Shown piece by piece: positions 28,391-56,749 of a stretch of DNA of 64,000 nt. The DNA lies in assembly GCA_010093605.1 (NCBI GenBank), contig MU004182.1:192368-256367 (forward strand). The letters run 5' to 3'. Position numbers and translations under genes: made by a program. The first letter of the stretch is position 1; each line of letters opens with the position of its first letter. This DNA is from Lophium mytilinum. Its lineage: Eukaryota; Ascomycota; Dothideomycetes; Mytilinidiales; Mytilinidiaceae. Below the pieces are notes generated by a model that was not told the DNA's origin, ran no database searches, and saw only the letters and a program-made list of their open reading frames with translations.

Positions 28391-28392
28391 CT

Positions 28393-31300
28393 TCACGCGC
28401 GCCTCTCAGGCCCATCATCCGGCCTCCCATCCCATTCAGACTCCTCATCCGGCTCAACACAATACCCGCCACCGCTCTCCGCAGTCGGCGTGGTAGGCAT
28501 ACCCGTGATACCGGTCGGTATGTTCGTCGTGAAACTCCACGTATACGGCGGGAAACAGAGCGAGCTTGTCCGGACATGCGCCCTAGTGGAGCGCGTTGTG
28601 ACCGGGCCAACGCAGTAGCCTCCGCCGCTTCCTGCGGTCGGTGTGGGAGGGACACCTGTTATGCCGGAGGGGATGTCGGATGCGAAGCTCCAGGTGTATG
28701 GAGAGAAACAGAGAGAAGAAGTTTCGATCGCGGAGATGGTGGTGAGGGTGGGGCGGTGGTGAGTTGGGCGAGGCGGGGGTCTATGTCCTTCATCAGGCCC
28801 TTCTCCGTTGTCTTCGGGCCACTCCGTCACGGTTACGGTTTTTCCGGAGATGTAACATGGTTTGGAGTACGATACGGGGGTTGGCTTAGGAGTGATGACG
28901 GGAGGATGAGGGCGTTCGCAGAAGCCGTAGTCGGATTGGCAGCCTCTATCGCAGGCAAAGGGGGTGTTGCCACTGGCATGAGGTCAGTGTCAAGGTCTGG
29001 CAGCGGAAGGAAGGTATCTTACCATCGGCCATCTGGGCCACAGCATCTTCCGAACTTCGATCCCTTGCAAGTAAATCCTCTATGTTCTCCGCATGTCCCG
29101 TCCGGCGAGATGGGATTCGAAGGTGGTGTGACGGGCCGGGGCGGTTCGCAGGCGCCGAAACGAGGTTGGCATAGTTCGCCGCAAGCGAAGTCATTGTTGC
29201 CGCTGTAGTAAGGAGTTGGCAGTCAGAATGAGAATGAATGAATAGTGGGGAAGGGGTGGTTTTACCAATGACCATCTCTGCTACAGCATCTTCCAAATGG
29301 CGATCCTTTGCATGTATAGCCCCTACGGCCTCCGCATGTCCCGTCTGGCGAGATCGAGCCTGGTGGTAGGTTTGGTGTTGGCGAAGGTTCGTTTTCACAG
29401 CTCTTCTTTCCTCCTTTGATGTAGCAGGTCGAGAAAGATGAGGATGATGGGCTGGCTACCACTCCAAACGGCGAAGTTTCAGAGCTAGAATAGACAGAGG
29501 ATGATATACTAGAAGATGTCGATATTGCAGAGCGAGAATAGACGGAGGAGTCTATACTAGAAGATGTTGATGTTGCAGAGGGAACATTAGAGCTGCTAGG
29601 CGAAGGACTACTAGCGCTGGCAGAAGGGAGGCTGGTGGGCGGCGGGGCCTCTGAAGATACCGGGCTTGGGATTGAGCATGGAACCTTCATCATGCCCCCG
29701 CTAGACCGTTGAGATGTGGTTTGTCCAATAGCGCTCCTCAATGTACAAGAACCCATCGTATATGTGAAGTCGACACACTCACTCATTCCTGCGCACTGGA
29801 CTTGACAGTCTGAGAACGTTGTACGAGTTGGGGCACTTAGAACGGTCCCTGAATGAATGACTCCGCAGTACGCACGGAAACAGACATCCGAGTATTGATA
29901 CACTTGGCCGTCTTGGACTCCATTACAGGTAAGTGGCAGCGGAGATGACGACTGAACAAGCGCGGATGTTGTAATAGTGCTTGATGTAGAGCTTGGACTT
30001 GACGGAGTGGCAGAGGAACTCGCTGTGGGTGGTGGCTGTGAGCTAGTTGAAACTACCACGGTTGAGCTTGTCGGCGATGAGACCACACCACCTGGAGACG
30101 CTACGGAAGAGCTTCTAGTGGATGAAAGAGAGGCACTCAGCGTGCTTGTCGATACGGTGACTGGAGAAGGCGAGAGCGGATTGCTAGCTATGGTTGATAG
30201 TGACGAGGAGCTTGATGTTACCGGTGTAGTCGTAGGAGAGAATGGTGGCGAGCTTGAGCCGATTAACAACCGCGCTGCACAAGCCCCAGGCTGATTCCGC
30301 GACATGCCCAAAGCGCTCTTCATCTGACAGGATGAGCTCATGCTGGTATACTGGACACCCACACAGTTCCGAGCATTTCGACAAGTAGAAATGCATCCAG
30401 AGAAAGAGAGGCCTCCCATCGCTTGGCCTAGATTTCCATAGGGACCGCCCATGTAGCTGGTGTTGCACTCGACGGTAAAGTCGGATCCGGTATCCGAGTA
30501 TCCTTGACTAAGGCCGCAACAGGAGGCTGGACTGGGGCTACCAGAGAGGGTGGAGGATGAAGATGACGCTCCAGACTGTACACTCGTGGGACCACCTAGT
30601 GTCGGCGAGCCTGGTGACGAGCTGAAGGAAGATGGTATTGACGGAGTTATGACTGACCCAGAAGCCGGCAGTGAGCTTGGAAGCACGGACGAGCTTGAAA
30701 TCACGGACGAGCTTGAAATCACGGACGAGCTTGGAAGCCTAGATGACGATGACGATGAAGATGCGGACGATTGTGAGCTTGAAGCACTAGATGACGATGG
30801 CAGCGACGCTAATGGTGAGCTTGTGGCCTCGGGGGAAAATGAGCTTGGAGCTGTAAGCGAAGATGGCAGCGACACTGATGGAGAGCTCGATTCTGCTAAA
30901 GATAATGTTGTGCTCGTGGCTATAGGAGAAGACGGTGAGGCTGAGACAACGGGAGAAGCTGACGAGCTCAGAGTGACAGAAGAAGACGACGAGTTTGCCA
31001 CAGCCGATGACGGCGAGGACAGACTTAGTGCCGTAGACGACAGCGGGGAAGCAATTGATGGTGAGGTCGAAGGCACGGTGGAAGATAGCGACGCGATCGA
31101 TGCCGAGCTTAGAGCCGATGGACTTGACAAAGTCAACGAGTCTGACAGTGAGCTGGGTAGCCCAGACGAGGAAGTTGGAGCAAGCGAGGATGAACTTGAG
31201 CCAAATACCCTCCTTGCCGCACAGGCCCCTGGTTGATTGGCTGGAGTGGCAATAGTATTCTTGTATGAGCAAGTTGAGCTTGAAGGTCCTTGGTTGCCAG

Positions 31301-34300
31301 ACGTGAACTGAACGACCACACAGCCATCTGTGGTGCTGCATCCGGCTACACAATTGGCGAAGGTAAGACCACGCACGGTTCTGATGTTTTGACCTGGATG
31401 ACTGGCGTTGCATTCAACGATATAATCAGATCCGGCAGCTGTGAAGGGTCCTTCATCGAGGCCGCAACAGGTAGCGCTACTGGGACTAGGGATCGACGGG
31501 GCAGATGAGGTTGATGCACTTGATGAGCTGCTGGCTCCCAATGCCGTTGAGGGTTGAGAAGATGATACTGAGATACTGCTTGGGGAACTTCCAGGTGCCG
31601 CCGATGTGAGAGTTGAAGACGACGCTGCTGGGGTTGAAGATGGCGAACTAGTAGAGGCGGAGACACTACTGCTCAAGCTCGTGGATGTTGATGGTGGGAG
31701 ATTGCTTGGGGAGCTCCCAGGTGCCACCGATGTGAGAGTTGACGACGTTGCTGCTGAACTTGAAGAAGGCAGACTTGTAGACATCGAGGCAGTGCTTGTG
31801 GAAGGTGAGAGTACGATACTGCTTGGCGAGCTCCCGGGAGCTAGCGATGTGAGACTTGACGACGACGCTGCTGAACTTGAAGATAGCAGACTTGCAGACG
31901 TCGAGGCAGTGCTTGTGGAAGGTGAGAGTACGACACTGTTTGGCGAGCTCCCGGGTGCCAGCGATGTGAGACTTGACGACGACGCTGCTGAACTTGAAGA
32001 TGGCAGACTTGACAACGACACTGCTGAAGTTGAAGATTGCAGACTTGTAGAGACGGGAACACTGCTGCTGATGCTCGCGGATGGTGATGCTGGGCTACTG
32101 GGTCCGCTGGTAGAGATGGTTGTGGCCGGCGAAGCCGGAGAATTACTTGGAGAGATTGAACCACCAAGCCCGCTTGATAAACTACTCGATGATGATGAAG
32201 CTGGCGATGAGCTCGGGGAATTCGCTGGTGGCGAACTTGGGGAGTTGCTTGGAGAAGCTGAGCTACTGGATCTGCTAGATAAAGAGCTTGGAGAAGTTAG
32301 GGGGCCGGGTCCGCTCGATGAAATGCTCGCTGGTGGTGAAGCTGACAGATTGCTTGAAGAAAATGGGCTACTGGGTGCGCTAGATGAGTTAGTTGGCGGC
32401 GGCGGTGTTGACGAGATGCCTGGAGAGGTTGGGCCACCGGGTCCACTTGATGGACTGCTTGTTGGCGGCAAAGTTGAAGAAGCGCTCGGAGAAGTTGGCC
32501 CACTGGAAAAGCTTGATGAGTTGCTTGCTAGTGGAGATGTTGGCAGGTAGCTTAAAGAAATTGAACTACTGGATCCGCTTGATGAACTACTTATTGGCGG
32601 CAAAGCTGAAGAAGCGCTCGGAGAAGTTGGCCCACTGGAAAAGCTTGATGAGTTGCTTGCTGGTGGCGATGTTGGCGAGTAACTTAAAGAAATTGAAATA
32701 CTGGATCCGCTTGATGCACTACTTGTTGACGGCAAAGCTGATGAAGTGCTCGTAGAGCTCGCTGGTGGCGATGTTGGCGAGTTGCTCGAAGAAGTTGAAC
32801 CACTGGATCCGCTCGATAGACTAGTTATTGGCGACAGAGCTGATGAAGTGCTCGTAAAACCCGCGGGTTGAGATGGTGACAAGTTGCTCGAAGAAGCTGA
32901 GTCGCTGAGTCCACTAGACGAACTACTTGACAGTGATGAAGCTGGAGAATTGCTTAGAGACACTGAGCTACTGCTTACGCTGGTAGGACTACTCGACGCG
33001 GCTACAGATGGCGTATTTCCTGGCAAATTGACACTACTTGAATTACCGGGAGCTGATGTTGCCAGTGATATAGTCCCTGATGTGGTGGTTATTGCAGTCG
33101 TGATACTGGGTACTTGGCTTGTAGCACTTGTTGTGCTGGTCACTGAGCTTGATGAAGGCTCTTCGACCTTTTGGAAGAATGCTGCCGGCGTCTCATCAAT
33201 AGTGGGAGGTCCCTTCGTATATCTCTTAAGGGTACAAAGCCTATCTTGAGTATAGACGACACCAACGCACATAACGTTGGCTGCACAGGCACCTAAACAT
33301 GATGACAGTGGGACATTTGTCATGTTTGCAATGTCCGTGGTAGGATCGGTATAGGTTGCGTTACAGTTCGGTTGGAAGCAAACACCTCCTTGACAGTAGC
33401 TCTGCCCTTCGGCATATCCAAAGCAGCTTGTGACTGTGGGGGATGCGCTGAAGCTTGCGGAAGATGTGGTTATTGAGGGGGATGATGAGACACTGGAATT
33501 GGTCGAGGATTGTTCGAATGATAACGGTGAAGATGTCGCAGTTGACGGTGGAGAAGACGCTGGACTAGAAGAAGTTGAGGACCCAGACAGCGCCGAGCTG
33601 ATCGCACTACTTTCATCTAGAGATGATAGACTCGATGTAGCTGTCGGGCCTTGGGGCGGAGAGGAGGAAAGGCCAAGAGATGATTGCGAACTTGAGAACT
33701 CAGACAAGGTACCTAAGAGGCTGTCTGAAGAACCAAGGCTTGCTGATAGCGATAGGCTTGCTGAGGATGAGCTTGATGTAGTTGTTGCACTTTGTGATGG
33801 AGAGGAGGAGCTGCTAAGTTGCGACTGTGAGCTCGAGACGCTGCTCGAAGAGCCAAAGCTTGCCGATGGCGACAGGCTTGCTGATGTCGATAGGCTTCCC
33901 GAAGATGAACTCGATGTAGCTGTTGCATTTTGCGATGGAGAGGAGGAGCTGCTAAGTTGTGACTGTGAGCTCGAGAGGCTACCCGAAGAGCTAAGGCTTG
34001 CCGATGACGAAAGACTCCCTGAATCTGAATTCGATGTAGCTGTCGGACCTTGCGGCGCGGACGGAGAGCTGCCTGGAGATGATTGCGAGCTCAAAAGGCT
34101 AGACAAGGTACTGGACAGACTACCTGAAAAGCTAAGGCTTGCTGATGCCGATGGGCTTCCCGAGGATAGACTTGATGCTGTTGTCGCACCTTGTGATGCG
34201 GATGGAGAGCTACCATTAGATGATAGCAAGCTCAAGGGGCTAGAGAAGGGGGTCGTGAAGCTGTCCGAAGAGTTAAAGCTTAAAGTCAGCGATGGGCTTT

Positions 34301-37300
34301 CCAAAGGTGAGCTCGCTGAGAAAAATGAAGACGCGATGGAAGTTCCCGAAGATTGCGATAAGGATCCTGTCGATGGGCTTCCAGAAGACGAAGTTGCACC
34401 GATCGACATTGACGAGCTACTGGATTGACTAGTTGAGCCAGTCAAAGACGAAGAGCCACTTGCAAAGTTGCAAACTGCCGAATCGGTAGTGGGGCTGTCT
34501 GAAGGCGTGCCTGTGGTAGATTTAAGCTGGCACGATTTTGATGTTCTCCCGTAAGATACACCCACACAGTTAGCTGTTTGCTGACACGTGCTGACACAAG
34601 CCTCAAAGCTATTTTTGGTGGAAGCGAATCCAAGATTTCCAGTAGGATAATTAGTGCTGCATCTGATGGTGCATAAGCCACCACCAGGCGGAGAATATGA
34701 CGATCCGTTTGACCCAGGACACAAGCTTGAAGGCGACGAGGCAAGCGGAGATGAGGTCACGGATACTGCGCTCGATGCTCCACTTGAGGCCGAGGAGATA
34801 CCAGGTGAGCTGCTGATTGACGATGGCGTTGATCCAGAAGTGTTCAAAGACGGTGAAATAGAGGTTGTACTTGAAGCCGTAGTTGAGGCTGACGCAGGAG
34901 CCGAATTCATGACTACAGAGCTGGTGACCGATCCAGACGCGAAAGAAGAGACGGAAAGCGGAGATGATGAGGCGCTCGATGTCTGGTTGTTCCAGCTCAC
35001 GCTTGGCTGAGATGTGGACGAACTAGAATCGCTGTTGAGCGTAGATGGAGAGACTCCTGGTCCACCTGTTGAGCTGGATGATGTTCCAGACGTTGTAGCT
35101 GTTATAGACGGGGTGTTGGACGCGGGCGAAATTGACGAGGCTGAACTAGACCCAGAGGAGACGGAGAAAGTACTTGTCGTACTGGACGGGCCTGAATCTA
35201 CGGATGGGCTAGAACCGCTAATAGGCGTGGAAGAAATGCTCTCCCCACTGAATGAGCTAAACAAACCTGATGTCGATGCAAAGAAGCTAACTGAAGTATT
35301 CGAGGTAGTGGATAATGCCGAAAGGGTGGATGGACTGAAGCTGCTACTAAACGGAGGGGAAGAGAATCCAGTCCCGCTGAAGGAGGTGGGTGAGGTTGAA
35401 TTCGCTCCAGGGGAGCTCCACAGAGTACCTGATGAGGCGGAGGGGACAAAAGCTGTGGATGAGCTAGAGCTGCTACTAGTCGGAGAGGATACCCCGGTCC
35501 CACCAAAGGAGCTGGACGAGGACGAAGTCAATGCAGAGGAGCTGGACAAAGTGCTTGACGAGGTGGAGGGGGCAAAAGCTATGGATGAGCTGGAGTTGCT
35601 ACTAGTCGGAAGGGAGACCCCGCTCCCACTAGAGGAACTGGATGAAGCTGGAGGCAATCCGGAGGAGCTAGACGAAGTACTTGATGACGCGGACGTGACT
35701 GAAACTGTGGACGAACTAGAGCTGCTACTAGGCACAGACGAAACCCCCTTCCCGCTAAATGAGCTGAGTGAAGACGATGTCGATCCGGAAGAACTAGACG
35801 AAGTACTTGACGACCCAGACGAGACTGAACTTGTAGATGAGCTAGAGCTGCTACTAGGCGGAGAAGAAACCCCGTTCCCGCTGAACGAGCTGGGCGAAGA
35901 CGAAGTCGATCCGGAGGAGCTTGACAAAGTACCAGATGACGCGGACGGGACTGACATCACAGATGAGCCAGAGCTGCTGGTAAGCAGAGTAGAAGAAACC
36001 CCTTCCCCGTTGAACGAGCTTTGTGAAAGTGAAGATGTTATGGACGAGCTAGAGCTACTGCTAGTGGAAGGAGAAGAAACTCCTTGCCCGCTGAAGGAGC
36101 TTGGCGAGGGCGAAGCTATGGATGAGCTGGAGCTACTGCTAGCCGGAGGAGAAGAAACTCCTGTTCCATTAAAGGAACTGGGTAAAGGTGAAGACGATAG
36201 AGATGAGAATACGCTGGACGGGGACTCCACCGAAGTAAGGTTGGTGGAGCTAGAGCCACCTGAAACAGTACTCGGCGCAGACGAAGAGCCTGAGAATGAT
36301 GAGGGGAAGGACGACAAGTAGGTGGATCCAGATGGCAGCGAGGATGATGAGGATATTGAAGACGTCATCACAGCTATAGATGAGGCATTAGAAATGCTAC
36401 TACTACTCCCTCCCGTCGTGGATGGTGATGTCCCAGAGAGCGATGAGCTTGACGAAGGAGGGTGATAAGCAGCGCACAGTCTTGGGCCGTTGTTCGTGAT
36501 GGATGAGCCGTTCGTAGCCACGTAATAACAAGCTTGCGAGTCCGGATACCATACTGCCTCGTTGCAGCCCTGGGCATTGTCGCATATCTGAACACACTGT
36601 CCAAAAGTTGAGGAGAATGTGGAGCTTGAGCTGCCGAGATATACACCGTTACACAGGATCTCATAGGAATTGCTCCCAGAGAAGACGGTGCTGCCTTCAG
36701 CCTGCCCACAGCACAATGCAATTGATAGGGTCGACGAGGCAGCGCTTGATGATGTGGCTCCCGAAGAAACGTTAGTCATGGCGGTGATGGTCGGTGATGA
36801 GAGCGATGTTGAAGAAGGGACTGTGGTTTCTGTACCCGAGGAAGTGGTTCTACTACTCGTGTCGGAGAGACTATTCGTGCCTGTGGATAACGGTGTTGAA
36901 GCTATAGAAGAGAATTCGCTTGAAGACGAAGCGCTAGCTGAGCTGCTGTTCACTCCAGCGGAGGGTGATACCAAAGACGGCGAAAACGATGTGCTGAAGG
37001 TTGAGTTACTGGGCGGACCGCTGCTCAATGTCCCCGACGGTGATGGCGAAAATGATGATGAAAGCTCGCTCGAGGAGGGGCTTCCAGATGGACTGCTATT
37101 CGGACTACTAGGTGGTGACACGGAGGGAGGCGAAGACACCGCGCTTGAAGATGACGCACTGCTGTTCGATAAGAGAGTTGGCGGTATCGAAATAGGCGAA
37201 GAGAGCATGCTTGAAGATGAGGTACCAATTTGACTGCTATTCCATCCACCAGATGGCGATATTGAGATAGATGAAGAAAACACGCTTGAATCTGAAACAC

Positions 37301-40300
37301 TAGATTGGCTGCTGTTCGATGCGCCAGTTGGCGAAGCCGAGACAGGAGAAGGCAATGCGCTAGAAGATTGACTGCTACTCGATACTCCTGATGGCGATAT
37401 CGGACCCGGAGAAGAGGATGCACTCGAGGTCGAGATTGCAACCGAAAGGGTGGTAGGAATAGTCGTTGGAATTGAAGACGAAAATCCTGACGCGCCACCT
37501 GAAGTCGTCGCAGATACAGAAGCAGGACTGATGCTGCTGGTAATGGAGGAACTGTTTGATCCAGAAGACGATGATGTTGGAGACGGTGAAGAGGCCGCGC
37601 TTGGAGAGATTGCCACCGAGAAGGTAGTAGGAACAGTCGTTGAGATTGACGACGGAGATCCTGACGCACTGTTCGAAGTCGTTGCGGATACAGATGCGGG
37701 ACTGGAGCTGTTACTAATGGAGAGGCTGTTCGTCCATACAGTTGAGGATGCCAGAGGCGACGAGGAGAACGCCGCTGAGGATGTGATGCTTGACGAAGTA
37801 ACAACACTCGGTTGTGTGGGTGTCGAAGAGGAGATTGCCTCGCTGGACAGGTTGCTGGACACTCCAGAAGTTGATGATAGCGATGAGGTGGAGTTCGAGT
37901 ATATACTCTGTGAAAGACTGTCGGTCGTTGAAGTGATGCTCGGCGATGAAAGACCTGCACTCGATCCGGTGCTTGTCAACGAGGAAATTGTGACACTAGT
38001 CGAGCTGCTAGACACTCCAGATGTGAAGGAGCTGCCGGTAATCAGCGCGGTGCTTAAAGATAGACTACCACTAGAAGAAGAGTTCCCTAAGCTATAAGAG
38101 GGATTCGTTCCCGAGACGGTACTGCTGAATGACGAAGATGCGGCAGGTGATTGGCTACTCGACAACGAGGGTGAGCTTCCGGAGGATCCCATAGCTGGGC
38201 TTGATATAGTGCTCAGAGAATAGCTATTGCCAAATGATGAAGACCCGAGCCCCAGTGAACTGCTTGACGATGATGCAGTGGCGTTGGAAAGTGTAAAGCC
38301 TGACGTTATTGGAGAACGCGACTCTGCCGAAGTAGTCACTTCGGATGAATAAGAGGATCCAGAGGAAGTGATGAAGCTCGTGCTAGGAGGTATGGAGCTT
38401 GTTGAAGACGACGGCGCTGGTGAAGTAGATCCAGACAAGTTGAAAGCGGAAGAAAGTATGCTGAACGACCCTGGAGAGCTAGTTGTTGATGCACTCAACG
38501 AAGGCGAGCTAGGGGTTGCCGAGGGGTTGCTAGTGAGGGAGAAGTTGCTGCTCGCTCCGGTCACTAAGAATGAAGAACTCAGCGAAGAATTGCCCGTTGT
38601 AGAAGCTTTAAATGGCGAAGATGTTGGTTGGGAGACGCCGCTAGGGCTGCTGGCAACCGTAAGACTGAGAGTGGATCCAGAAGTAGATGGAGAGAGGCTC
38701 GAGGAAGAATTCAGTAACGCAGAAGAATTCGAGGGAAGACGGTAAGCTGCGCAAAGTCCTTGCACCGTGGCCAACTGGGCGTTTGGCGCGGGAGCCAAGT
38801 GATAACATTCAGAAGGATCTCCACCTGGAACCGCTGCATACCACAATACCTCACTGCAAGTAGCATCACTCTCACAGTCCTGAATACACTCGGTAAACGA
38901 CAGGTCAGTTGAGGAGGCCTCTTCTGAGGCTTGATACCAAGCATCGCAAAGAACTTGATAGGTGCCGCTTCCGGAAGCGACTGTAGATCCACACAGCCCA
39001 GCACACACTGCAGACGATGAAGTAGAAGTAATCGAGCTCGAGGTAGTAGTTGTCTCTGTCAGATCGATAGTCGTGCTTGTGAAAGTCGATGACGAGAGAC
39101 CTGAGCTTGATCCGAGGGCGAAACTTGCCGACGAAGTTGTGGCAGATGAGCTACTGTTTACTGACATTGGTGTGTTTTGACTCGGCGAAAACAACGATGC
39201 AGACATCACCCCGCTACTAGAGCTTGAGATGGTTGGGCTATTGTTGGATGCTGAGAGGCTAGAATCAATCGATGATCCCGAGTAAGACTGGCTCGCAGAA
39301 AGAGTACTGCTGCTGCGTTGTGTTTCGGACTGATTCGAGGATACAGAGCCAGATACGAGGCTACTACTACCACTATCGACTGTACCAGAAGCCGTAGGGA
39401 TGATAGTTTGTGTGCTGTTTAGAAGTGGCGAACTGACCATCGAAGACACAGTAGACATTGGTGATACTACGGCGCTTCCGTTGACAGTGGATGTCGAAGT
39501 GGTTGGAGAGCTCTCTGAACTGTTCAAGAGCGGTGAACTGAATGACGAAATAACACTTGATGATGTCGTTGTCACGCTGCTCTCACTCACGACGACTTCT
39601 GAAGTGACTGAGACACTTTGTGAGCTGCTGGAGAGTGATGAACTTTCTGTCGAAAATACGCTAGACAATGAAGACACCGTGGAACTTTCATTGACAACTG
39701 ATTCTGAAGTAGTCGATGCACTTTGCGTGCTACTCATCGTTGGGGAGGTGGCTAGGAGCATGCTCGAGTTCGTCAATGGTGAAATGACTGTCGAAAACGC
39801 GCTGAACAATGAAGATACTGTGGAACTTTCATTGACAATGGACTCGGAAGTAGTCGATATACTTTGTGTGATATTCATCATCGGGGAGGTCGCTGAGGGC
39901 ATGCTCGAGTTTGTCAATAGTGAACTAATTGCTGGAGACACGCTCGGCGATGGCGATACCACGCTGCTCTCACTTATGGACAGTGCCGACGTAATCGAAA
40001 TATTTTCCGAGCTGCTCAAAAGCAGTGAACTAGATGTTGAAGACACGTTGTTAGATGACGATACTGTAGAACTTTCACTGGCAGCGAATTCTGAAGAGAC
40101 CGAGGAGCTTTGTGTACTCAATGTTGAGGAGCTAGCCAAAGACGCGCTCGAATTCGTCAATGGTGAACTGACTGCTAGAGACATGCTCGGGGATGATGAT
40201 GCCACGCTACTGTCGCTGATGACGGGTGTAGAAGTGAGCGAGATACTTTCCGAATTTGACGGTGTACGCAAACTAGTAACCGAGCTTTCTGAAGAAGAAG

Positions 40301-46300: not shown

Positions 46301-49300
46301 CCAGGGTTGACGTCGCGGTTGCCGAGAGTGAAGCCGAAAAGCTCGAGATTGATGATGAAGCCGAGACCTCTGACGACGTAGACACATCTTGCGTCGATGT
46401 AGAAGGCAGCGTCGCAGAGACACTTGTGCTACTAGACTGCGAGATGAGTAGCGCATCGCAGGTCCCCGATTGAGGCGTTGTATCCCCTACGCTCTTCTTG
46501 AGGAAACATGGTCCATTGCCCGAGAATGAGAGATCTACGCAACCTGGGGTCGCTGTACATTCTTCTATACACTGCGTGAAGTTGATGTTGTAAAGCGGGC
46601 CACTGAGATTGTCGTTTGATTTGTACACACCCGCTGAAATAAGGAAATCTTGGCCAGCGATGGTGACAATGGTGTTGTTCCCTAAACCGTAACAGGGCAG
46701 TGACGGCGATGGTGATGGTAAAGGAGTTGACGAGCTTGGAATCAAGGATACAGAAGTCAAGGTTCCGACTGATGATGAGTCCGACTCCGAAGACAGCAAA
46801 GAAGATGACGCTAGAGATGAGGAGGGTAGCCCGAGCGATGAAGCAGTCGAGCTTGTCACAGATGATGACGCAAGCTCCGACGATGGCGAAGATGATACGG
46901 AAGATAAAGATGGTAACTCGGACGATGAATCAGTTGAAGTTGGTAAGGACGATGACCCAGATTCTGAAAATATTGAGGATGATACGGTTGGAGAAGGCGA
47001 GGTGATCTCAGACGATGAAGCAATCGAGGTCGTTAAGAACGATGACTCAGGCTCAGAAGTTAACGAGGATGACACTGTTGGAGATGGCGAAGGTAGCTCG
47101 GACGATGACTCAGGCTCGGAAGTTGTTGAGGATACCGTCAGAGAAGGCGAGGGTAGCTCGGACGATGAAGCAACCGAGGTTGGTAACGACGATGAGTCCG
47201 GCTCAGAAGTTGTTGAGAATGTTACCGTTGGAGAAGGTGATGGTAGCTCGGATGATGAAGCAATCGATGTTAGAGAGGACGATGGCTCAGGCCCAGAAGT
47301 CGTTAAGGATAACATGGCTGAAGAAGTCGAGGGTAGCTGGGACGATATATCGGTCGATGTTGCCAGGGAAGAGGAGCTAGGCTCCGGCAACTGCGAGGAG
47401 TAAAACGTGGCAGACGAAGAAGACTGCGATACAAGTACGGCGTCACAGGTCCCTATTTCAGCCGTGGTGACTCCAACAGACCTCTTGAGGAAGCAGGGCC
47501 CACCGTTCGAAAATGACAAATCAACACAGTCTGGATTCGCTGCGCAAGTTGCAATGCATTCGGTGAAATTCATGTTATAGAGAGGGCCTGTAAGGTTGTC
47601 GTTCGACTTGTAGACATCCGCTGAGATAAGGAACGATTTCCCTCCAGTCGTGTATGTAGAGCTATTCCCAAGTCCATAGCAGGCCGCAGACGGGGATGGT
47701 ATGAATGCAGACGAAGAAGTTGAAGAGCTCGGCAGATTGGATGAGGATGACGACAATGTTAGAGACGAAGAGAGTGGTGTTGACGATGGTGCCGTAGAAG
47801 TAGACTGCGAGACAAGCATAGCATCACATGTACCCAGCTGGGTCGTCGTCGTTCCCACCGACTTCTGAAGAAAGCAGGGCCCATTAGTCGAGTACGAGAG
47901 GTCAACGCAATCCGGACGTGCCGCGCAAGCTGCAATGCAGTCTGTGAAATTCATGTTGTAGAGAGGGCCCGCGATGTTATCGTTTGATTTGTACACATCG
48001 GCTGCGATAAGGAACGTCTTGTCTCCTACGGTGTAAGTTGATCCGTCCCCTAAGCCATAGCAGGCCGCGGAAGGGGACGGAGTAGAAGTGACGGAGGTTG
48101 TTGGACTGGAGACCGCCGGAATTAACGAAGGCGTTGAAGAGTTTTCTGAGGTGCTCGAAGAATCTGATGAGGAGCTCGAAGCAGAGGTTGCTAGGCTCGA
48201 TGATACCGATTCCGAGGCGCTTGAAGAAGTTAACGATGAGCTGGAAGTAGAAGCTCCCAGACTCGAGGAAGGCAACGAAACCGATTCCGAAGCGCTCGAT
48301 GAACCAGATGATGAGCTCGAAGCCGAGACTTCCAGGCTCGATGATATTGATTCCGAGGCGCTCGAAGAAACTAACGCTGAGCTCGAAGCAGAGTCCGACG
48401 GGCTGGCCGAAGGCGATGAAGATAGTCCCGATGTGCTTGAGTAAACTGACGTTGAATTCGAAGCAGAGTCCGACGGGCTAGCTGAAGGCGATGAAAACGA
48501 CTCCGAAGCGCTTGGAGAAATTGACGCTGAGTTCGAAGTAGAAACTGCCAGACTCGAAGAAGGCAATGAAAACGATTCCGAAGCGCTTGAAGAAACTGGC
48601 CCTGAGCTCGAAGCAGAGTCCGAAGGGTTGCCCGAAGTCGATGAATATAGTTCCGAGGTACTCGAAGTGGCTGACGATGAGCTAGAAGCAGAGTCTGACG
48701 GGCTGAACGGCGGTGAGCTTGAGGTCGTCGAACTCTGATCTACGGCGGATGAGATAGACAGAGATGAGCTAGATAGTATTAAGCTTGATACCGACAGGCT
48801 CTCGGTGACAGAAGACGACAAAAGTAAAGAGCTGAAAGTAGAAGACGATACGTCGAACGAGCTCGATGGTGGAGTTGGACTAGTCACTACGACGGAAGAG
48901 CTCAACGGGGGACCAGGAATGCCATATGCTGCGCAATAACCTAGCAGATCCTGTATTGGGTACGATCCAGCTGATATCAAGTAACAGTAGCCAGGGGCAG
49001 TAGGAAGGTACAACGCCTCAGTGCATTCAGGATCGTCGTCGCAATTTTGTACACACTGTACGATATCAATGCCAGAGGTCGGCGTGGTGTCGGCTGATTG
49101 AGACCCAGGGTACCAAGCCCCGCAAACTAGTTGATAGTAATTGCCGCCGGACGTCACGAAAGTATATCCCTCAGCTTGCCCACAGCATGCTGCGGCTGAG
49201 GATGTCGAGGAAAGAGATGACGTGGTCCCCGAAGTGACTAAAGAAGAGGAAGCTGTTGATAACGATGAGCTCGAGGTCGAGAGGACTTCTTGTCTCAAAG

Positions 49301-52300
49301 CTCCGCACTCTCCAGGTTCCAAGACGGCATCTCCTACAGTGCCCTTCAGAAAACAGTCGTTCGAGGAAGGATGGAATGACAAGTCGAGACAAGCACTATT
49401 TGCTGCACAATAAGATACGCAAGTGTTAAAGTCCACGCCACGGTAAGTCGCAATGTCACCGTTAAGGTGGTTGATATCGCATTCTACAGTGAAAGTGACA
49501 TCATTGTTCGTGAAGGTCGTTTGGTTCTGGTAGCCGCAGCAGTATCCAGACGGAGTCGGACTTGCGGACGAGGTTGATGTTGTGGTTGTCGGGCTTCCTC
49601 CAGACAAGAGACCGTCACAGGTTCCGGACTCCGTAGATGCAGTTCCTACTGAGCTCTTCAAGTAGCAGGTCCCTCCGCTGGTGTAACTAACATCAACACA
49701 TGAAGAATTTCCTGAGCACCTAGTCAGGCAATCATTGAAGGTACCGCCGAAGAATGGGCCATCAAGGAGACCGCCGAAATGTGTGGTATCAACCGAGACA
49801 GTAAAGTTTTTTCCGCCGATAGTCGCTGTAGTTCCATTCGCATATCCTCCGCAGGACGGCTGAGCGGTTGGAGATGGAGAAGACATTGTTGCTGACGTTG
49901 AGGTTGAGGTTGAAGCTGTCGGGCTTCCTCCGGACAAGAGGCCGTCGCAGGTTCCTAATTCCGTGGATGCCGTACCAACTGAGCTTTTCAAATAGCAGAC
50001 CCCGGAATCGGTGTAGCTAGTATAGCTAACGTCAACGCAGGACGAATTTGCTGCACAGGCCGTCAGGCAATCACCGAAAGTCCCGCTATAGATGGGGTCC
50101 CCCAGATTGCCACCGAAGTGCGTGACGCCAACTTGGACGGTAAAGCTTTTGCTCCCTATAATTGCCGTAGTTCCATTCGCGTATCCACCACAAGTTGGTG
50201 GAGCGCTCGGGGAAGGGGATGAGGATGTTGCTGTCGTTAAGGTTGAGAGGGACGGGCTTCGCCCCGATAAGAGGCCGTCACACGTTCCTACCTCTGCGTT
50301 TGCATTTCCGACAGAACTTTTCAAGTAGCAAACCCCTGAGTCGGTGTAACTAGTGTAGCTAACGTCAACACAAGAGCTGTTCCCCGCACAAGCCGTCAAG
50401 CAATCGGCAAAGGTGCCGCCGTAGATGGGATCTCCCAAATTGCCGCCAAAATGCGTAACGCCGAGTTGTATGGTGAAGGTTTGGCCACCTATGACTGTCG
50501 TGGTTCCGTTCGCATATCCACCGCAAGTGGGCGGAGCGCTTGGAGAGGGAGAAGAGGTTGAAGACGAAGTCGAAGATGACGCCGTCGGTATTGGTAGGAG
50601 ACCGTCACAGCTTCCGGCTTCAGCATAGGCATCGCCCACGGAACTTTTCAAGTAGCAAGTCCCACCGCTTGTGTATGTGACATCAACACAACTGGAATTT
50701 CCCGCACAGGCCGTCAGGCAATCGTTGAAAGTACCACCAAAGAAAGGACCTGCCAAATTACCACCAAAGTGCGTGATACCCAACTGAACCAAAAATGGCT
50801 TCCCGCCCACAGTAGCTGTGGATCCGTTTGCGTAGCCGTAGCAGTCCGTCATGCTTGGGGAGGGTGCCGGGGAAGAGGAAACTGTGGAACTTGACGTCGT
50901 TGATATTGGCAAAAGACCATCACAGGTGCCCGCTTCAGCGTAAGAGCTCCCTACTGAGCTCTTGAGATAACAGGTTCCTCCGATTGTGTAAGATACATCT
51001 ACACAGCTGGAGTTCCCCGCACAGGCGTTTAGGCAGTCAATGAACGTCAGACCGAAAAGTGGGTCTCCTAGGTTTCCACCAAAGTGTGTAGTCCCTAGAC
51101 TTATGAGGAAGGTCTTACCACCAGTAGTAGCTGTAGACCCATTTGCATACCCGTAACAATCTGTCATACTAGGGGACGGAGACGGGGAGGCGGTCGTTGA
51201 GCTTGATGCCGTTGATATTGGCAAGAGACCATCGCAAGTACCTGCTTCAGCAAAGGCAGTTCCTACGGAGCTCTTCAGGTAACAGGTACCCCCAACTGTG
51301 TAGGATACGTCTACGCAGCTGGAGTTTGATGCACAACTGGCCAAGCAGTCGCTGAATGCAAGATTGAAAATCGGGTCTCCGAGATTCCCACCGAAGTGCG
51401 ATATTCCTGTTTGGATAAGGAACTGCTTTCCTCCAATCGTCGCCGTAGATCCGTTCACGTAGCCGCCGCAGGCCTGCACCGTTGGAGATGGGGAAGAACT
51501 CGATGTTGACGTCGTTGAGGATGGGCTGCTTGGAAGGAGGCCGTCACAGCTCCCCGGATCCGAGATTGTGTTTCCCACAGAACCTTTCAGATAGCAGGTC
51601 CCACCAGAGGTATACGTCACATCCAAACAGCTAGAATTGCCTGCGCATGCTGCTAGACAGTCGCTGAATGCCAGATTATAGATAGGGTCGCCTAGGTTCC
51701 CACCGAAGTGACTAATTCCAGACTGGATTAAGAACGATTTACCTCCAACAACCGCAGTAGACCCATTTGCGTAACCATAGCATGCGGATGGAGACGGCGA
51801 AGCAGCAGCTGAAGAAGAAATAGTCGAAGTACTAGAGGGCGAAGCTTGAGGGTACAATCCATCACAGGTGCCAGCCTCGTAAACCCGACTACCGACCGAG
51901 TTCTTCAAATAGCAAGTGCCCCCGCTGGTGTATGAGGCATCAACACAGGCAGGGTTTGCGGCGCAACGTGCCAGACAGCCGGTGAAGTTGAGGTTATAGA
52001 CTGGTCCCTCAAGATTTCCGCCGTTATGGGAAAGATCTGACTCGACGAAGAAAGGTATGCCGGCTACTATGGCCGTAGAGGCGTTTGCATAGCCATAGCA
52101 GGGAGACGAAGGGGACGCTGTAGCTGACGACGATACAGTCGGAGACACGCTATTCGTTGATGAGGAGCTTGGTGTACTCGAACTCACTAGGGCATCGCAA
52201 GTCCCGGCCTGATATGTCGGATTGGTTCCAGCGACGCCCTGATTCAGATAACAGGTACCTCCGCTGGTATATGCAGCATCTGTGCACCCCTGAGTAGTAG

Positions 52301-55300
52301 CACAAGTTGTCATGCACTGCGTGAAATTGAGATTGTAGAGGGGTCCAGCGAGCAGCTTATTTGAATTGACGGTGTTAGTTTGGACCAAAAAGGTCACTCC
52401 GTTGATGGTGGCTGTGGTACCGTTTGCGTATCCATAACAGCTTACGGATGCAGATGGAGATGACGAAGCGAATGTTGATGTTCCAGACGTCGCAGAATTC
52501 GAAATGGTTGTCGACGTTACTACGGACCTCACGGACACCAAGGCGTCACAAGTCCCGGCCTCATACGCTGGATTTGTCCCAGCAACTCCCTGTTTTAGAT
52601 AGCACGTGCCTCCGCTGGTGTACGAGAGATCTGTACATGTCGAATTTGACGCGCAGGCCGTAATGCATTGCGTAAAATTCAAATTGAAGAGCGGGTCTCC
52701 AAGATTGTTATTGGAGTTCCTAGTGTTTGAGTTGATGACAAAGGTGACGCCGCCGAATGTAGTAGTTGCAGAGTCCGCGTATCCATAACAAGACGCGGAT
52801 GGCGACGGCGATGGCGACGAAAAGGTCGACAGTGACGATGACGGTGAGATGGATGCTATTGAGCTTGAAGCGGACGAGCTAGATAGCGCTGGCGATGAAG
52901 ACGCCGAGAGCGAAGAAGAGAGTGAGCTGGATGCTGTCGAACTCGAAGTGGACGAGGATTGCGATGACGTCGATGAAGAAGCCGAGAGCGAAGAGGAAAG
53001 TGAGCTGGATGTCGTCAAGCTCGAAGCGGATGGCGACGGCGATGGGGACGAAGAGGCCGAGAGCGAAAGCGAAGCTGAGCTGGTGGCTGTCAAGCTTGAA
53101 GTCGACGAGCTGGACAGCGATGCGCTCCCGATCACCAAAGCGTCGCATGTACCACTTTCTGAACTTTTAGTTCCAACGCTCTGTTTCAGATAACAGGTCC
53201 CGCCGCTGAGATGAGTAGTCAGTAAATATCTGCGGTCTCAGGCATAACACCCATACCTTGTATATGCAAGATCAACACAAGCCGCGTTAATTGTGCAGTT
53301 CCCCAAGCAGTCTAGAAAAGAACCTCCGAACAGAGGGTTACCCAAGTTATTGTTTGACTTCGTCACGCCGTATTCAATGTAGAAGGTGACTCCATTGACT
53401 GTGGTTGTTGTGCCATTGGAGTAGCCATAACATGTTGGCGGAGCTACAGACGTAGTTGAAGATAGTGCCGAACTAGTAGAAGACCCAGGGCTTGCTGAGG
53501 GTGCTGAGGTAGGAGACAGGGACTGGGACGATGACACTGCGGAAACTGCATTAGAGCTGGAGCTTCCCAGAAGAGTCGTCAGAACGCCGGTGAGAACAAA
53601 GCCTAGCCCAATAGTCGAAGTACTTGGAGGAGTTGAATACAGATTGCAGACTGAAGTCGTAGCGTTATAGACCGCCGATTGGCATGCGTTGTTTCCCCAG
53701 CCCGCACAGACGTCTAGACACAACTGAAGCGAAAAAACTGCCGAGACGCTGGAAAGAAGGGTTCCTGGGGTAGCGTTATTGCACAGAACGGTGTAGTTCT
53801 GGCCACTGCTCAAGTATGTCGTGCCATTAGCAGCTGGGCAAGTGAGGGCAGTAGTTGAAGGAGACGCCGACGAGACTATACTGGAAGATGTCGTAGAAGA
53901 TATCGTGGGACTCGTAGACCCACTGGCACTTCCACTCGAACCCAGAAGGGAGCTCAAGATGCCCGTCAACACGTTACTCACGCCGGTTACTAAGAAATAT
54001 GATGTCCCTGATGCTGCGCGTCTCAGTGTACACACTTGGCTTGTAGCGTTGTATGAGGCAGTGCCACATCCGCCGCTCGAGTCTAAAAAGCTTGAGCAAT
54101 AATTGACGCATGTTACCAGATCTGCTGTTATGACGGTGCCAATGACAGTCCCTCCGGAAGTATCTGTACCGCACAGAACGGTGTACTGTTGGCCATTGCT
54201 CGTGTAGGTTGTGCCGTTAGCACCAGGGCACACTAATGCGGATGCTGAGGCTGAGGGTGATGCGGACGCGACTGAGGGGCTGGGACTGCTTCCACTAGAG
54301 CCTCCTAGAAGGCCGCTCAGAACCCCGGTCAATAGATCAACTGTGCCCCCTACCAAACCAGTTCCAGAGCTTACAGCGGCTCTCAGTGTACAAGTAAGCG
54401 TAGTTGAATCGAATGTAGACGAAGCACATTGGCCGTTCGAGTAGCCGGCGCAATAGTTCAGGCAGGTTGTAAGGTCCGCAACGCCATTAACAGTGCCCAG
54501 TATAGTCCCTCCAGTGTTTGTGTAACACAAAACCGTATACGTTCGCCCATAACTAGTATACATTGTTCCATTGGCAGACGGACAACTCAAAGCAGTCGAA
54601 GATGGCGATGCTGACAGGCTCGTGCTAGAGAGAACAGTGCTACTACCTGTAGAACTCGATGCCAATGTGGAACTTGAAAAAAGGCTAAGCGCGGTAGAGC
54701 TTGTAGAACTGGATGGTATTATAGAGCTTGAAGGGGAACTAGTAGCCACTAAAGAGCTTGTAGAACTTGAGGCGAATGTGGAGCTCAAAGGGGAGCTAGT
54801 GGCGGTAGAGCCTGAAGAAGAACTAGTAGCCACTGAAGAGCTTTTAGTCGTCGTAGAACTTATAGGTGAGACGGAGCTAGAAGCCACCAAGGAGTTCGAG
54901 GTTGTAGGCGATGAAGAACCTCCGACCCCTCCAAGATTGATGCTGGTAATCGATAGACTCGGAAAACTTAATGACAGACCGGAGACAGCGGCGGAGCTGG
55001 ATATCACCGAATTGCTCGAAGAGACCGAGCTAATGATCGAGACTGAGATCGAAAGCACGCTCGACGTTGTTGTAGCAGAAACGGCACTCGACGCAGATGT
55101 TGTAATCAGGCTGGTTATGGACGGAGCGCGGGACGAGCTCGAACTCGAACTCGACGAGGAAAGCAGTGTAGCAGAACTCGTAACAGCCGGCGAGCTTGTC
55201 GTCAACGCTGTCGATGACGACGTAGCCACTGGAGATGAAGACGGGGCTACCGTCCGCACGGCATCCCAAACCGTGGGATTATAACTACCAGTGTTGGCGA

Positions 55301-56057
55301 GAGACTTGACATAGCACTCGGCAGGTCCTTGAGAGTGGAGCGGGATGTATCCGACATCTTGACAATTGCTCAAGGAGTTGCAGTAGCCGATACAGGCATC
55401 GAACGAGCCAGAGTAAGGCGAGTAAAGGGGCCCGGCAATGTTCGCGTCGTACCTATCCAGATAGCAGGTGATGGTGTAGTAGTATGTTCCTATCCGAACG
55501 ACCTGGCCATCATTTGCGGGACAGCTGATAGTCGTGGATGGCGAAGCTACAACAACAACGGTGGTTGAAGGCGTCTGGGTGGTGGTCGTTGCCACCAATA
55601 CTGCTGAGGATGATGGAACTCCTGTATAGCGCACAGCATCGTGGACCGTGGCGACATATGAGCCCGAATTGACCGCACTTTTAGGGTAGCATTGTGGAGG
55701 ACTCCCAGCGTTATAGCTGACAGCCACACAGTTGGAGAGGGAGGCGCAATAATCAATACAAGCGTCCATGGTGGCGTATCCGTAGTAGGGGCCGCCAATG
55801 TTCGAATCATAGCGATCGTATGAACAGGTGATGAGGTATGATTTCGATCCGGAAGTGTATATGGTGCCGGATGATCCAGGGCAGACAATCGCGCGTTCTG
55901 CCAGTTGTCGCTCTGTCAAGATTTCTGGCACTGCTAATTCCTTACCCGCCAATGCAGGTACTCGTGCTGGTGCTCCATAAACGAGCGATGTGAAGTGTAA
56001 GTTTACCAAAAGAATTGCGAGGCGCCTGTGCCAGGCGCCTCTGCTAGAACTCGCCAT
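28393..56057 (-). CDS. Giant (~9,166-residue) secreted mucin-like protein with ~36 PAN/Apple-like modules and two CBM18 domains
   Basis: Four exons: 56057-53257, 53205-29266 (23,940 bp), 29202-29023 and 28972-28393. They total 27,501 bp, divisible by three, including the N gap. Introns are 51, 63 and 50 bp. Each joint rebuilds a conserved unit: exon 1/2 makes AYTSGGTCYLKQSVG, and exons 2/3 and 3/4 rebuild CBM18 cores. The start (ATG 56055-56057) opens a signal peptide (LAILLVNLHFTSLVYGAPA). About 36 modules follow with pattern CYGYANGST...FxxCLxxCAxNxxCVDVSYTSGGTCYLKxxVG...GTCDGL, which I assign to the PAN/Apple superfamily. They are separated by Ser/Thr/Pro linkers likely to be heavily O-glycosylated. 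Two CBM18 modules (~residues 8885-9000) and a duplicated C-terminal motif end the protein. There is no GPI or membrane anchor. Inferred role: cell-wall or extracellular-matrix glycoprotein or adhesin. No enzyme domain is seen. Confidence 0.9.
28455..28725 (-). repeat. Duplicated C-terminal motif of the giant protein
   Basis: Two copies of about 37 residues: TSSLCFSPYTWSF...SGGGYC (about 28725-28615) and TSSLCFPPYTWSF...SGGGYC (about 28570-28465), separated by a basic linker (TTRSTRAHVR). Both hold two Cys and the phrase IP[ST]GITG[VM]P. The protein ends ~15 residues later in hydrophilic sequence. I do not recognise the motif. Confidence 0.85.
28915..29350 (-). other. Two CBM18 (hevein-type) modules split by introns
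   Basis: Module 1 reads DGTCGGRRGYTCKG, FGRCCSRDGHCG, NNDFACGELC and FGAC. Module 2 reads DGTCGEHRGFTCKG, FGRCCGPDGRCG, NTPFACDRGC and YGFC. Each has the eight hevein cysteines in order. An intron interrupts each at the same place, after TG of the CG cysteine codon, so the pair arose by duplication of a module with its intron. The aromatic residues that stack on chitin in hevein (S-x-W-G-W-C and E-Y-C) are replaced by D, H/R and A. Confidence 0.85.
32467..32760 (-). repeat. 132-bp linker minisatellite
   Basis: Units begin at 32467, 32599 and 32731 (GGCAAAG), period exactly 132 bp or 44 residues. The first two are nearly identical (AAGCGCTCGGAGAAGTTGGC) and the third is partial. It encodes Ser/Pro-rich linker. 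Confidence 0.85.
40768..40842 (-). repeat. 15-bp minisatellite encoding VEPSS repeats
   Basis: Five units of GAAGGTTCGACCGAC with single-base changes. The coding strand reads a five-residue repeat VEPSS/VEPTS. It adds regularly spaced acidic and proline residues to an otherwise Ser/Thr linker. Confidence 0.9.
43231..43950 (-). repeat. 90-bp linker minisatellite spanning the N gap
   Basis: Units of 90 bp (30 residues, containing SLSSTTDS and SEIAS) start at 43231, 43321, 43411, two inside the gap, 43681, 43771 and 43861. The phrase TGAGGTGGTTGACG is at 43401, 43671 and 43761, so the spacing across the gap is exactly 270 bp. Confidence 0.88.
43485..43669. other. Assembly gap (185 N) inside the giant gene
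   Basis: A run of 185 N lies within the 90-bp minisatellite. The minus-strand frame is the same on both sides, and the repeat register is kept. Gap length is therefore probably about right, although the missing sequence is not known. Confidence 0.97.
46183..46266 (-). repeat. (GGGCTT)14 hexamer microsatellite encoding (Ser-Pro)n
   Basis: Fourteen perfect GGGCTT units on the plus strand. On the coding strand this reads AGC CCA, a Ser-Pro dipeptide run in the linker before module 22. The triple-G runs sit on the template strand of the giant gene. Confidence 0.97.
48925..53435 (-). repeat. Dense array of PAN-like modules (modules 6-18)
   Basis: Thirteen modules of ~85 residues lie close together with short linkers. 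Approximate start points (first Cys) are 53435, 52793, 52443, 52103, 51783, 51476, 51170, 50852, 50528, 50192, 49860, 49540 and 49190. The nine from 52103 to 49860 inclusive of neighbours are most alike (HFGGNLGDP, NSSCVDVSYT, GGTCYLKSSVG). Two of them carry the same insertion YTSYTDSGVCYLK. The last two (CCGYQNQ, CCGQAEG) are divergent. Confidence 0.85.
53580..55890 (-). repeat. N-terminal PAN-like modules 1-5
   Basis: Two tandem modules starting with CPGSSGTIY (about 55888) and CPANDGQVV (about 55533) share SYDRYDSNIGGP / YLDRYDANIAGP. After a Ser/Thr linker come three modules starting CPSANGTMY, CPGANGTTY and CPAANGTTY (about 54590, 54232 and 53843). Each of these ends in a hydrophobic tail such as LLTGVLSGLLGGSS or VLTGILSSLLGSS, absent from later modules. 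Confidence 0.82.
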
Positions 56058-56749
56058 ACTCACCTGCTAGGCTCGGCCTAGAAGAGAACGTCGCGGATAA
56101 CTCGAGTCGCCGATCGAGATGGGGAAAATGAATGGTAGGCCGGGGAACTAATGAGTGATGAAGGCCGTAAATCGCGAGAAAGACAGCCAGAGGAAGGCTA
56201 GTCGACAGCAAGACGCGTCTCGGATGACTTTTCCAGAAGAGCGGCCTGATCTCTTAATCCCGGGGTACGTGGCGCGTCCATATTTTCGCGGTCTAGTTGG
56301 AATGGAGATCTCTCAAGGCATATCTCCGCATGGGAATGCACCAAAGGCGAGATGGTGGTACATAGGGATCGCTTGTACGGCAGTTGAGCAAGACTGTCGG
56401 GTTTGAAGATATAATTGACTACGCGCAGTACAGACTTCAAATACTCTTAATCTAAACGAAGTGGAAATGAGTGCAAACCCACGTAGCCTGTGTATGACGC
56501 CCACACGTCTGTGGTAATCATGTATGAACTTACATATCGAAAGTTTAGTGGCGATCATGCATCAAAACAGCAGCGTAATCACCCATGCCAGCTTTTCTAG
56601 ATCTTGATGGACACATGCTGATTCACAGCGTGTCAAATTTGCAGTAGTTGAAATGCTCTTATCCTCACTAATCGCCCTCTCTTTCTTGGGCTCTGCCGAC
56701 GGAGCCGTTGTAAGGGTCGGGCCGCCAATGTCTTCAGCAAGGGGGTTCT
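56058..56749. promoter_or_regulatory. Upstream region of the giant gene, 692 bp
   Basis: This lies between the SDR gene's 3' end and the giant gene's start. On the coding strand GTGAGT directly precedes the chosen ATG, so a 5'-UTR intron donor is possible there. No specific control site can be supported. Confidence 0.45.

Follow-up and report, generated by a model that had tools for sequence, protein, structure and literature searches.

The very long open reading frames on the minus strand of the Lophium mytilinum DNA analyzed here (a stretch of 64 kb, hereafter the window) raise the question whether they belong to one gene and, if so, what kind of protein it would provide to the fungus. A preliminary description had proposed a single gene spanning 27.7 kb (28393-56057), with four exons and three introns, for a secreted, titin-scale protein made of about 36 PAN/Apple-like modules, Ser/Thr-rich linkers and two CBM18 modules. 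Its coordinates proved exact: splicing of the four minus-strand exons (Table 1) yields a coding sequence of 27,501 nt including the stop codon, a multiple of three, that encodes 9,166 amino acids, with a calculated polypeptide mass of 898 kDa when X is counted as Ser. The comparison with titin was too generous. Titin comprises roughly 35,000 residues, and the protein considered here is therefore about a quarter of its size.

Table 1. Features of the giant PAN gene (positions in the window)
Feature	Positions	Strand	Description
Exon 1	53257..56057	-	2,801 nt; PAN modules 1-5 and first part of module 6
Intron 1	53206..53256	-	51 nt, GTATGG...CTGAC...CAG; in-frame TGA inside
Exon 2	29266..53205	-	23,940 nt, no in-frame stops; remainder of PAN module 6, modules 7-36, Ser/Thr/Pro linkers, beginning of first hevein-like module
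Dense block, PAN modules 6-16	49596..53441	-	residues 873-2137; linkers of 15-108 residues; spans intron 1
N run	43485..43669		185 N within exon 2, residues X4113-4174
Intron 2	29203..29265	-	63 nt, phase 2; within first hevein-like module
Exon 3	29023..29202	-	180 nt; end of first hevein-like (CBM18-like) module and start of second
Intron 3	28973..29022	-	50 nt, phase 2; within second hevein-like module
Exon 4	28393..28972	-	580 nt; end of second hevein-like module, proline-rich segment, twin motif, acidic C terminus, stop

Both long open segments are real. The frames underlying the gene extend over 942 codons (53238-56066) and 7,991 codons (29262-53237), while the longest open frame in 100 simulated order-2 Markov sequences of 64 kb reached 481 codons, which rules out a chance origin; across exon 2, the other five frames contain between 183 and 703 stops. 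The start codon at 56057 is the first ATG beyond an in-frame stop and opens a hydrophobic, signal-peptide-like N terminus, from which we conclude that the protein is probably secreted. All three introns follow the GT-AG rule, and each joint rebuilds a cysteine module, just as had been claimed: removal of intron 1 restores PAN module 6, and joints 2 and 3 restore the two hevein-like modules, in which the introns occupy matching positions. Introns that remove most of the linker DNA had been named as a finding that would overturn the single-gene model. We rejected such hidden introns because a strict pattern of donor, branch point and acceptor gave no candidate in the gene for introns of 45-120 nt with a length divisible by three, and because branch-like CTRAY sites are rarer than in synonymous shuffles (50 observed vs. 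81.0 expected, z -4.5). Donor sites are weakly rarer (19 vs. 27.2, z -2.0), and the donor hexamer GTGAGT (5 vs. 4.7), like some others, is not depleted.

The 23.9-kb segment had been regarded as unbroken. It contains no stop and its frame is kept throughout, but it harbors a run of 185 N that had been overlooked. This run sits in a 90-bp linker repeat whose frame and phase match on both flanks; across it, an identical peptide reappears at a distance of exactly 90 residues (3 x 30), and 43 bp match without a difference at a spacing of 270 bp. Since repeat phase and reading frame agree on either side, the gene very likely continues through the run, on account of which its exact length is uncertain. 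An assembly artefact, in which duplicated repeat units or chimeric joining would have fused several genes into one, might be suspected from the position of this gap in a tandem repeat and from a further genomic locus that likewise contains a run of 130 N (L060). We consider it highly improbable, however, as neighboring modules are strongly divergent at synonymous sites (dS at least 1.36 among the measurable pairs listed), a single frame is maintained through 23.9 kb, and identical repeats of at least 40 nt within the gene amount to three pairs (42, 55, and 43 nt), the TGGGCT array aside. Modules that have diverged to this extent are not copied reads, and together with the scarcity of exact repeats this largely rules out read duplication or chimerism.

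Counted by cysteine spacing, the protein contains 36 PAN/Apple modules, in full agreement with the earlier estimate. In a Pfam profile search, the protein piece encoded by 45705-53204 matched PAN_4 (PF14295; 3e-50) and PAN_1 (PF00024; 7.8e-46). The search of single modules against PAN/Apple profiles that had been suggested as a check recovered 24 of the 36 with PAN_1 and 24 with PAN_4 at E 0.01, each model, counted separately, missing 12; one module additionally matched KIAA0319_N (2e-4). WSC models found no match in the 36 single modules at E 0.01, nor, at E up to 1, in six pieces covering the whole protein minus the exon 1/exon 2 joint. The alignment of all 36 modules, which carry either 6 or 8 cysteines, has five invariant cysteine columns; a C-4-C-6-C core is present in 33 of them, and modules 3-5 display C-4-C-8 or C-4-C-10. 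When compared with solved proteins, the module profile retrieved the apicomplexan microneme protein MIC4 (5.1e-10), a Kelch-domain protein (4.1e-7) and factor XI (9.7e-6), so that the Apple domains of MIC4 and factor XI are among its best sequence relatives of solved structure. These two proteins possess a few tandem Apple domains and are not known to carry mucin-like linkers of the size found in the giant.

The linkers sum to 5,519 of the 9,166 residues and are free of cysteine. With 44.4% Ser, 11.7% Thr, and 8.6% Pro, they match in composition and repetitiveness the long Ser/Thr/Pro-rich regions that are O-glycosylated in mucins. The preliminary view of one giant Ser/Thr-rich PAN protein of the secreted type is supported. 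Ser and Thr add up to 3,906 residues and N-glycosylation sequons to 118, and the product is very probably heavily O-glycosylated. Tandem-repeat periods are divisible by three in all 29 rows within the gene vs. four of six elsewhere in the window (rows overlap). Six comparisons of linker repeat units gave dN/dS values of 0.34-1.05, the recent repeats being near neutral in two of them (0.88 and 1.05). For the modules, 52 pairs more than 50% identical were considered, of which 38 had saturated dS and gave no estimate; dN/dS was below 1 in each of the remaining 14, with a median of 0.16, and these measurable close pairs thus show purifying selection. On the module tree, the modules sort into distinct classes, and modules 9-16 branch as a ladder, which suggests that they arose by stepwise tandem duplication. 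Conserved modules and freely changing linkers would together constitute an internal record of the giant's growth through module duplication.

These data bear on the possibility that the protein acts as a fungal mucin, secreted to fill the matrix or to form mucilage, in which the mass and hydration of the glycosylated linkers matter and the PAN modules mainly cross-link by self-association. The share of the linkers in the protein, the dN/dS values of their repeat units and the fact that an anchor sequence is not evident would all suit such a role. Nevertheless, we judge it rather unlikely, as the low median dN/dS of the measurable module pairs and their distinct classes on the tree suggest specific binding rather than filling.

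The giant does not stand alone in its genome. Smaller relatives with one to three PAN modules each share its module family: a Ser-rich frame of 2,010 amino acids with three PAN-like modules (C7), a gene combining PAN with a multicopper oxidase (C10), and four single-PAN proteins (C13, C17, C22, and C23). C7 and the four single-PAN proteins are 44-59% identical to the query module, and the latter four are nested among the giant's own modules on the tree. Viral or prokaryotic relatives were searched for with a one-module query; 73 pattern stretches (genome_contigs) and nine (viral_contigs) were retrieved, and tblastn confirmed none of them. The existence of single-PAN and few-PAN proteins in the same genome, along with the difficulty that so long a strand would presumably pose for intact secretion, might speak for a mature product consisting of several proteins, generated either by Kex2-like cleavage into PAN fragments or from shorter transcripts through multiple promoters or poly(A) sites. 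Yet the 9,166 residues include just seven dibasic KR/RR pairs, five of which fall within PAN or hevein-like modules; a regular dibasic cutting pattern is consequently absent, and we regard a product in several parts as unlikely.

What had been called two CBM18 modules at the C terminus holds in part. Both copies display the eight-cysteine hevein spacing 8,8,1,6,7,4,7, and Chitin_bind_1 (PF00187) is the sole Pfam match of each; its scores of 16.9 and 16.0 bits, however, fall below the cut-off of 27.8, and PF00187 did not appear at E up to 1 when a longer C-terminal piece served as query. Aromatic residues of hevein-type modules contact the sugar. In the first copy, which matches the pokeweed lectin 1uha weakly (E 0.15), D, H, and A take the place of the lectin's W, Y, and Y, and aromatics are absent from the first (CCSRDGHCGNNDFAC) and the second copy (CCGPDGRCGNTPFAC) when compared with 1uha (CCSQWGYCGTTDNYC), whereas a canonical hevein-type module elsewhere in the same genome retains them (CCSAYGWCGSTDAYC). 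Six matches to the pair outside the gene, at 34-59% identity, span the CBM18-like part and the sequence up to query residue 95, which excludes the twin motif. A coat protein anchored through binding of its CBM18 pair to wall chitin would draw on the cysteine spacing, the Pfam match, these outside matches and the identical intron placement in both copies; the missing aromatics and the sub-threshold scores weaken the case for a functional chitin anchor to a degree that makes this reading improbable. The twin SSLCFxPYTWSF...GGGYCV repeat of exon 4 has no Pfam relative (just DUF4336, E 0.33) and none in the PDB at E up to 1. The C terminus, which reads EPDEESEWDGRPDDGPERRA, is devoid of hydrophobic segments of the membrane or GPI type, and the eight most hydrophobic 19-residue windows listed are all situated outside the last 1,500 residues.

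On balance, we favor the interpretation that this is one continuous gene whose product is secreted, very probably O-glycosylated, and acts as a multivalent adhesive strand at the surface of the fungus or in its extracellular matrix. O-mannosylated linkers would form stiff bristles of micrometer length; the closely packed N-terminal block (modules 6-18) and the widely spaced C-terminal modules would bind glycans or proteins weakly but many-fold; and the hevein-like pair together with the twin Cys motif may anchor the chain in the wall or matrix through contacts that need not involve chitin. The strand could thereby stick hyphae together or cover the surface, as has been proposed for the small wall protein Ss-Sl2, with a far longer reach. 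The role as surface coat, adhesin or matrix component put forward in the preliminary description is thus one that we, too, infer from sequence features.

This functional assignment is made by analogy with Ss-Sl2, Wsc1, and CBEL (PMC3338822, PMC9024836, PMC3532174). Ss-Sl2 of Sclerotinia sclerotiorum is a PAN-module cell wall protein with a role in cell integrity; like the giant, it stems from an ascomycete and is secreted, but compared by description only, it has two PAN modules in 352 residues against 36 in 9,166 (PMC3338822). In Wsc1, a PAN-fold head sits on a glycosylated Ser/Thr rod that acts as a nanospring, an arrangement reminiscent of the PAN/Apple modules and adjoining Ser/Thr-rich linkers of the giant; sensors of this type, however, possess one WSC domain, a transmembrane segment and a cytoplasmic tail (PMC9024836), whereas the giant matches PAN rather than WSC models. 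CBEL of Phytophthora, a wall-associated protein with galactose/GalNAc lectin activity, likewise combines non-catalytic PAN/Apple modules with small Cys-rich modules of the carbohydrate-binding type, but this oomycete protein pairs two PAN modules with CBM1, in contrast to the 36 PAN and aromatic-free hevein-like modules of the giant (PMC3532174). The architecture also fits the layout of GPI-anchored fungal adhesins (Flo, Als, Hyr type), namely ligand-binding modules, here putative, on a Ser/Thr-rich stalk; the C-terminal hydrophobic GPI signal of these adhesins is missing by hydrophobicity windows. We found no description of a giant PAN protein of this kind in the open-access PMC literature among the titles listed, and to this extent the earlier impression of an undescribed architecture stands. 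The giant is not isolated, however, given its smaller relatives in the same genome, C7 included, and the PAN wall proteins already known in fungi (PMC3338822). Fungal surface proteins with PAN modules are a small family already known, of which this gene appears to encode an extreme form.

A more far-reaching picture can be offered tentatively. Extended, the strand might exceed 1 micrometer and carry dozens of lectin-like PAN modules on linkers that form glycan bottlebrushes. Its compact binding block at the N terminus would be held away from the cell, on a stalk along which modules are ever wider spaced, and its modules would belong to a pool shared with small secreted PAN proteins of the genome. 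Such a strand would be to fungi what giant matrix and mucin proteins are to animals, and would work through many weak contacts, with neither a GPI nor a chitin anchor. If made as one protein, the giant would, to our knowledge, be among the largest fungal extracellular proteins. Its expression in this form would mean that fungi, as animals do, construct giant multi-domain matrix proteins, and it would render testable whether surface stickiness is achieved via many weak PAN contacts vs. a few GPI-anchored adhesin heads.

With regard to the surroundings of the gene, neither tRNAs nor Rfam families above the gathering score were detected in the window. For the genome as a whole, an affiliation with the Pezizomycotina is suggested by its HET-domain matches, of which at least 152 were counted.

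Joining the two long, abutting minus-strand open frames (942 and 7,991 codons) at the locus of the giant PAN gene to two further exons yields a coding sequence of 27,501 nt for a protein of 9,166 residues, whose sole stop codon is the terminal one. The one-gene model with three short introns of the preliminary description is thereby borne out; these introns measure 51, 63 and 50 nt, and all three have GT-AG borders and are in phase 2. Excision of intron 1 removes an in-frame TGA and rebuilds PAN module 6 (counted from the N terminus), and introns 2 and 3 occupy the identical Cys codon position in consecutive hevein-like modules. The start ATG at 56057 is the first one downstream of an in-frame stop, and the hydrophobic residues 13-31, LAILLVNLHFTSLVYGAPA, represent a candidate signal peptide.

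Several features of this frame speak to its coding nature. The longest open frame in 100 order-2 Markov simulations (64 kb, exon-2 composition) reached 481 codons, and the remaining five frames of exon 2 contain 183-703 stops. Tandem-repeat periods are divisible by three in 29 of 29 rows inside the giant, which overlap and are hence not independent, versus four of six elsewhere in the window. Among 52 module pairs more than 50% identical, dN/dS is below 1 in all 14 with finite dS (median 0.16; the other 38 are saturated); for linker repeat units the ratio ranged from 0.34 to 1.05 in six comparisons. Judged against 200 synonymous shuffles, branch-like CTRAY is depleted in the coding sequence (50 seen, 81.0 expected, z -4.5) and donor-like GTRHGT slightly so (19 versus 27.2, z -2.0); some individual donor hexamers are not depleted (e.g. 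GTGAGT, 5 versus 4.7). When donor, branch site and acceptor all had to fit a strict pattern, no hidden 3n intron of 45-120 nt was found in the coding sequence. A TGGGCT array (15.3 copies, 46182-46273) encodes a Ser-Pro run and is likely variable in length.

The long segment is not unbroken, as had been described, since a run of 185 N at 43485-43669 had been missed; another locus of this genome likewise contains 130 N. This gap bears on the alternative that the giant is an assembly artefact. A 90-bp linker repeat flanks the N run on both sides, the peptide IASTDISSSTTS recurs across it 90 residues apart, exactly three 30-residue units, and an exact 43-bp match recurs 270 bp apart. Because these spacings keep frame and repeat phase concordant, it is very likely that one giant gene runs on through the gap, its length being a best estimate.

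Coordinates of the giant gene, its neighbours and selected relatives
Feature	Position	Strand	Remarks
RCC1-repeat frame	3096-4175		
ChAPs (Chs5p-Arf1p-binding) frame	5893-7719		
1,739-codon open frame	9692-14911	+	No Pfam match at E 0.01
TRM1 tRNA methyltransferase frame	23350-25815		
Giant, joined CDS	56057-53257, 53205-29266, 29202-29023, 28972-28393	-	Four exons
Short-chain dehydrogenase frame	56750-57814		
Ser-rich 2,010-aa frame	L054:2091-8120 (contig C7)		Three PAN-like modules; frame as read
Two PAN modules and multicopper oxidase, one frame	L055:2828-5404 (contig C10)		CBM18-like segment immediately upstream
Single-PAN proteins with CBM_4_9-type domain	Contigs C17, C22		C17 above cut-off, C22 slightly under

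The approximately 36 PAN/Apple-like modules previously proposed were recovered as 36 cysteine clusters. The core reads C-4-C-6-C in 33 of them and is wider in the remaining three (modules 3-5). Each module contains six or eight cysteines, and five Cys columns are invariant in the alignment of the 36. At E 0.01, PAN_1 and PAN_4 each matched 24 of the 36 modules taken singly; PAN_3 matched 13 and KIAA0319_N one. In the PDB, the module profile matched 15 distinct sequences with E no higher than 1, of which 11 reached 1e-4 or better. At the top stand MIC4 (5.1e-10) and a Kelch-domain protein (4.1e-7), which we take to be a Colletotrichum oxidase, followed by microneme antigen L2 at 8.8e-6 and coagulation factor XI at 9.7e-6. 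Three alike hydrophobic stretches, LVGGTVDLLTGVLSGLLGG, FLVTGVSNVLTGILSSLLG and TSTIGLGFVLTGVLTTLLG (53565-54356; starting at residues 568, 688 and 813), follow modules 3, 4 and 5.

The linkers between modules add up to 5,519 residues, 44.4% of them Ser, 11.7% Thr and 8.6% Pro, and contain zero Cys; they are 12-108 residues long among modules 6-18 and 107-669 from module 28 onward. As a mucin-like chain spans about 0.25 nm per residue, the extended linkers alone would reach about 1.4 micrometres. The giant is probably a strand of the surface or matrix that is glycosylated and binds multivalently; rival readings of the same chain are a precursor processed into fragments and a mucilage filler. 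For the surface or matrix strand, the nearest functional precedents are the wall PAN protein Ss-Sl2, required for sclerotial development and cell integrity (PMC3338822), Wsc1, whose PAN fold sits atop a glycosylated Ser/Thr rod with nanospring behaviour (PMC9024836), and CBEL, a Gal/GalNAc lectin combining PAN and CBM1 (PMC3532174).

Anchoring to chitin, another alternative, hinges on the two CBM18 modules claimed near the C terminus. Both copies preserve the hevein cysteine spacing, but they score 16.9 and 16.0 bits against PF00187 (cut-off 27.8), which was absent at E up to 1 with the whole 676-residue C-terminal piece as query, and the W, Y, Y of pokeweed lectin 1uha read D, H, A in the first copy (weak match, E 0.15). 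A pattern search of the 11 fetched regions found three further hevein-like segments: a canonical one on contig C15, CCSAYGWCGSTDAYC, and two located next to PAN modules, CCGPDNKCGASVDFC (C10) and CCNKDGWCGKSVSCC (C15). PF00187 has 13 matches genome-wide, 10 above cut-off. Given the low scores, altered aromatics and PAN-adjoining segments, the pair looks like a degenerate, PAN-associated subclass, as far as these few cases suggest, and its binding to chitin cannot be taken for granted. Downstream lie a twin SSLCFxPYTWSF...GGGYCV repeat, for which neither the PDB nor, at E 0.01, the rest of this genome yielded a relative, and an acidic end; sequence and hydrophobicity windows revealed no evident GPI-type hydrophobic tail.

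A single-module query returned 36 genome matches, of which 24 fall within the giant and the other 12 on contigs C3, C7, C10, C13, C14, C15, C17, C22 and C23. The module HMM matched ten of the 11 fetched regions, the exception (L063) having been picked for its CBM18. The PAN-multicopper oxidase gene on C10 encodes a PAN-bearing laccase-type enzyme. A tree was built of 48 modules, with good support for 15 of its 45 inner branches; in it, modules from C17 and C22 cluster with module 25 (99/99) and those from C13 and C23 with modules 19-21 (95/84), all four nested in a clade of giant modules plus these relatives (98/88). Since they nest there, the giant and the small PAN proteins share one module pool, and either could be the source. 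The ladder formed by modules 9-16 suggests stepwise tandem duplication.

No title among the matches listed in the open-access PMC literature describes a giant fungal PAN protein, and among the PAN surface proteins of fungi we regard this one as a variant both new and extreme; its orthologues may well be annotated somewhere already.

With RCC1-repeat, ChAPs, TRM1 and short-chain dehydrogenase frames as neighbours, the giant resides among ordinary chromosomal genes. The genome (43.2 Mb, 24 contigs) has at least 152 HET-domain matches, an abundance that seems typical of filamentous ascomycetes. Directly 3' of the giant, at 27926-28391, lie intergenic repeat copies spaced 160-183 bp; a 481-bp query from them found 39 further genome matches (68-84% identity), and they consequently belong to a dispersed, apparently non-coding repeat family.
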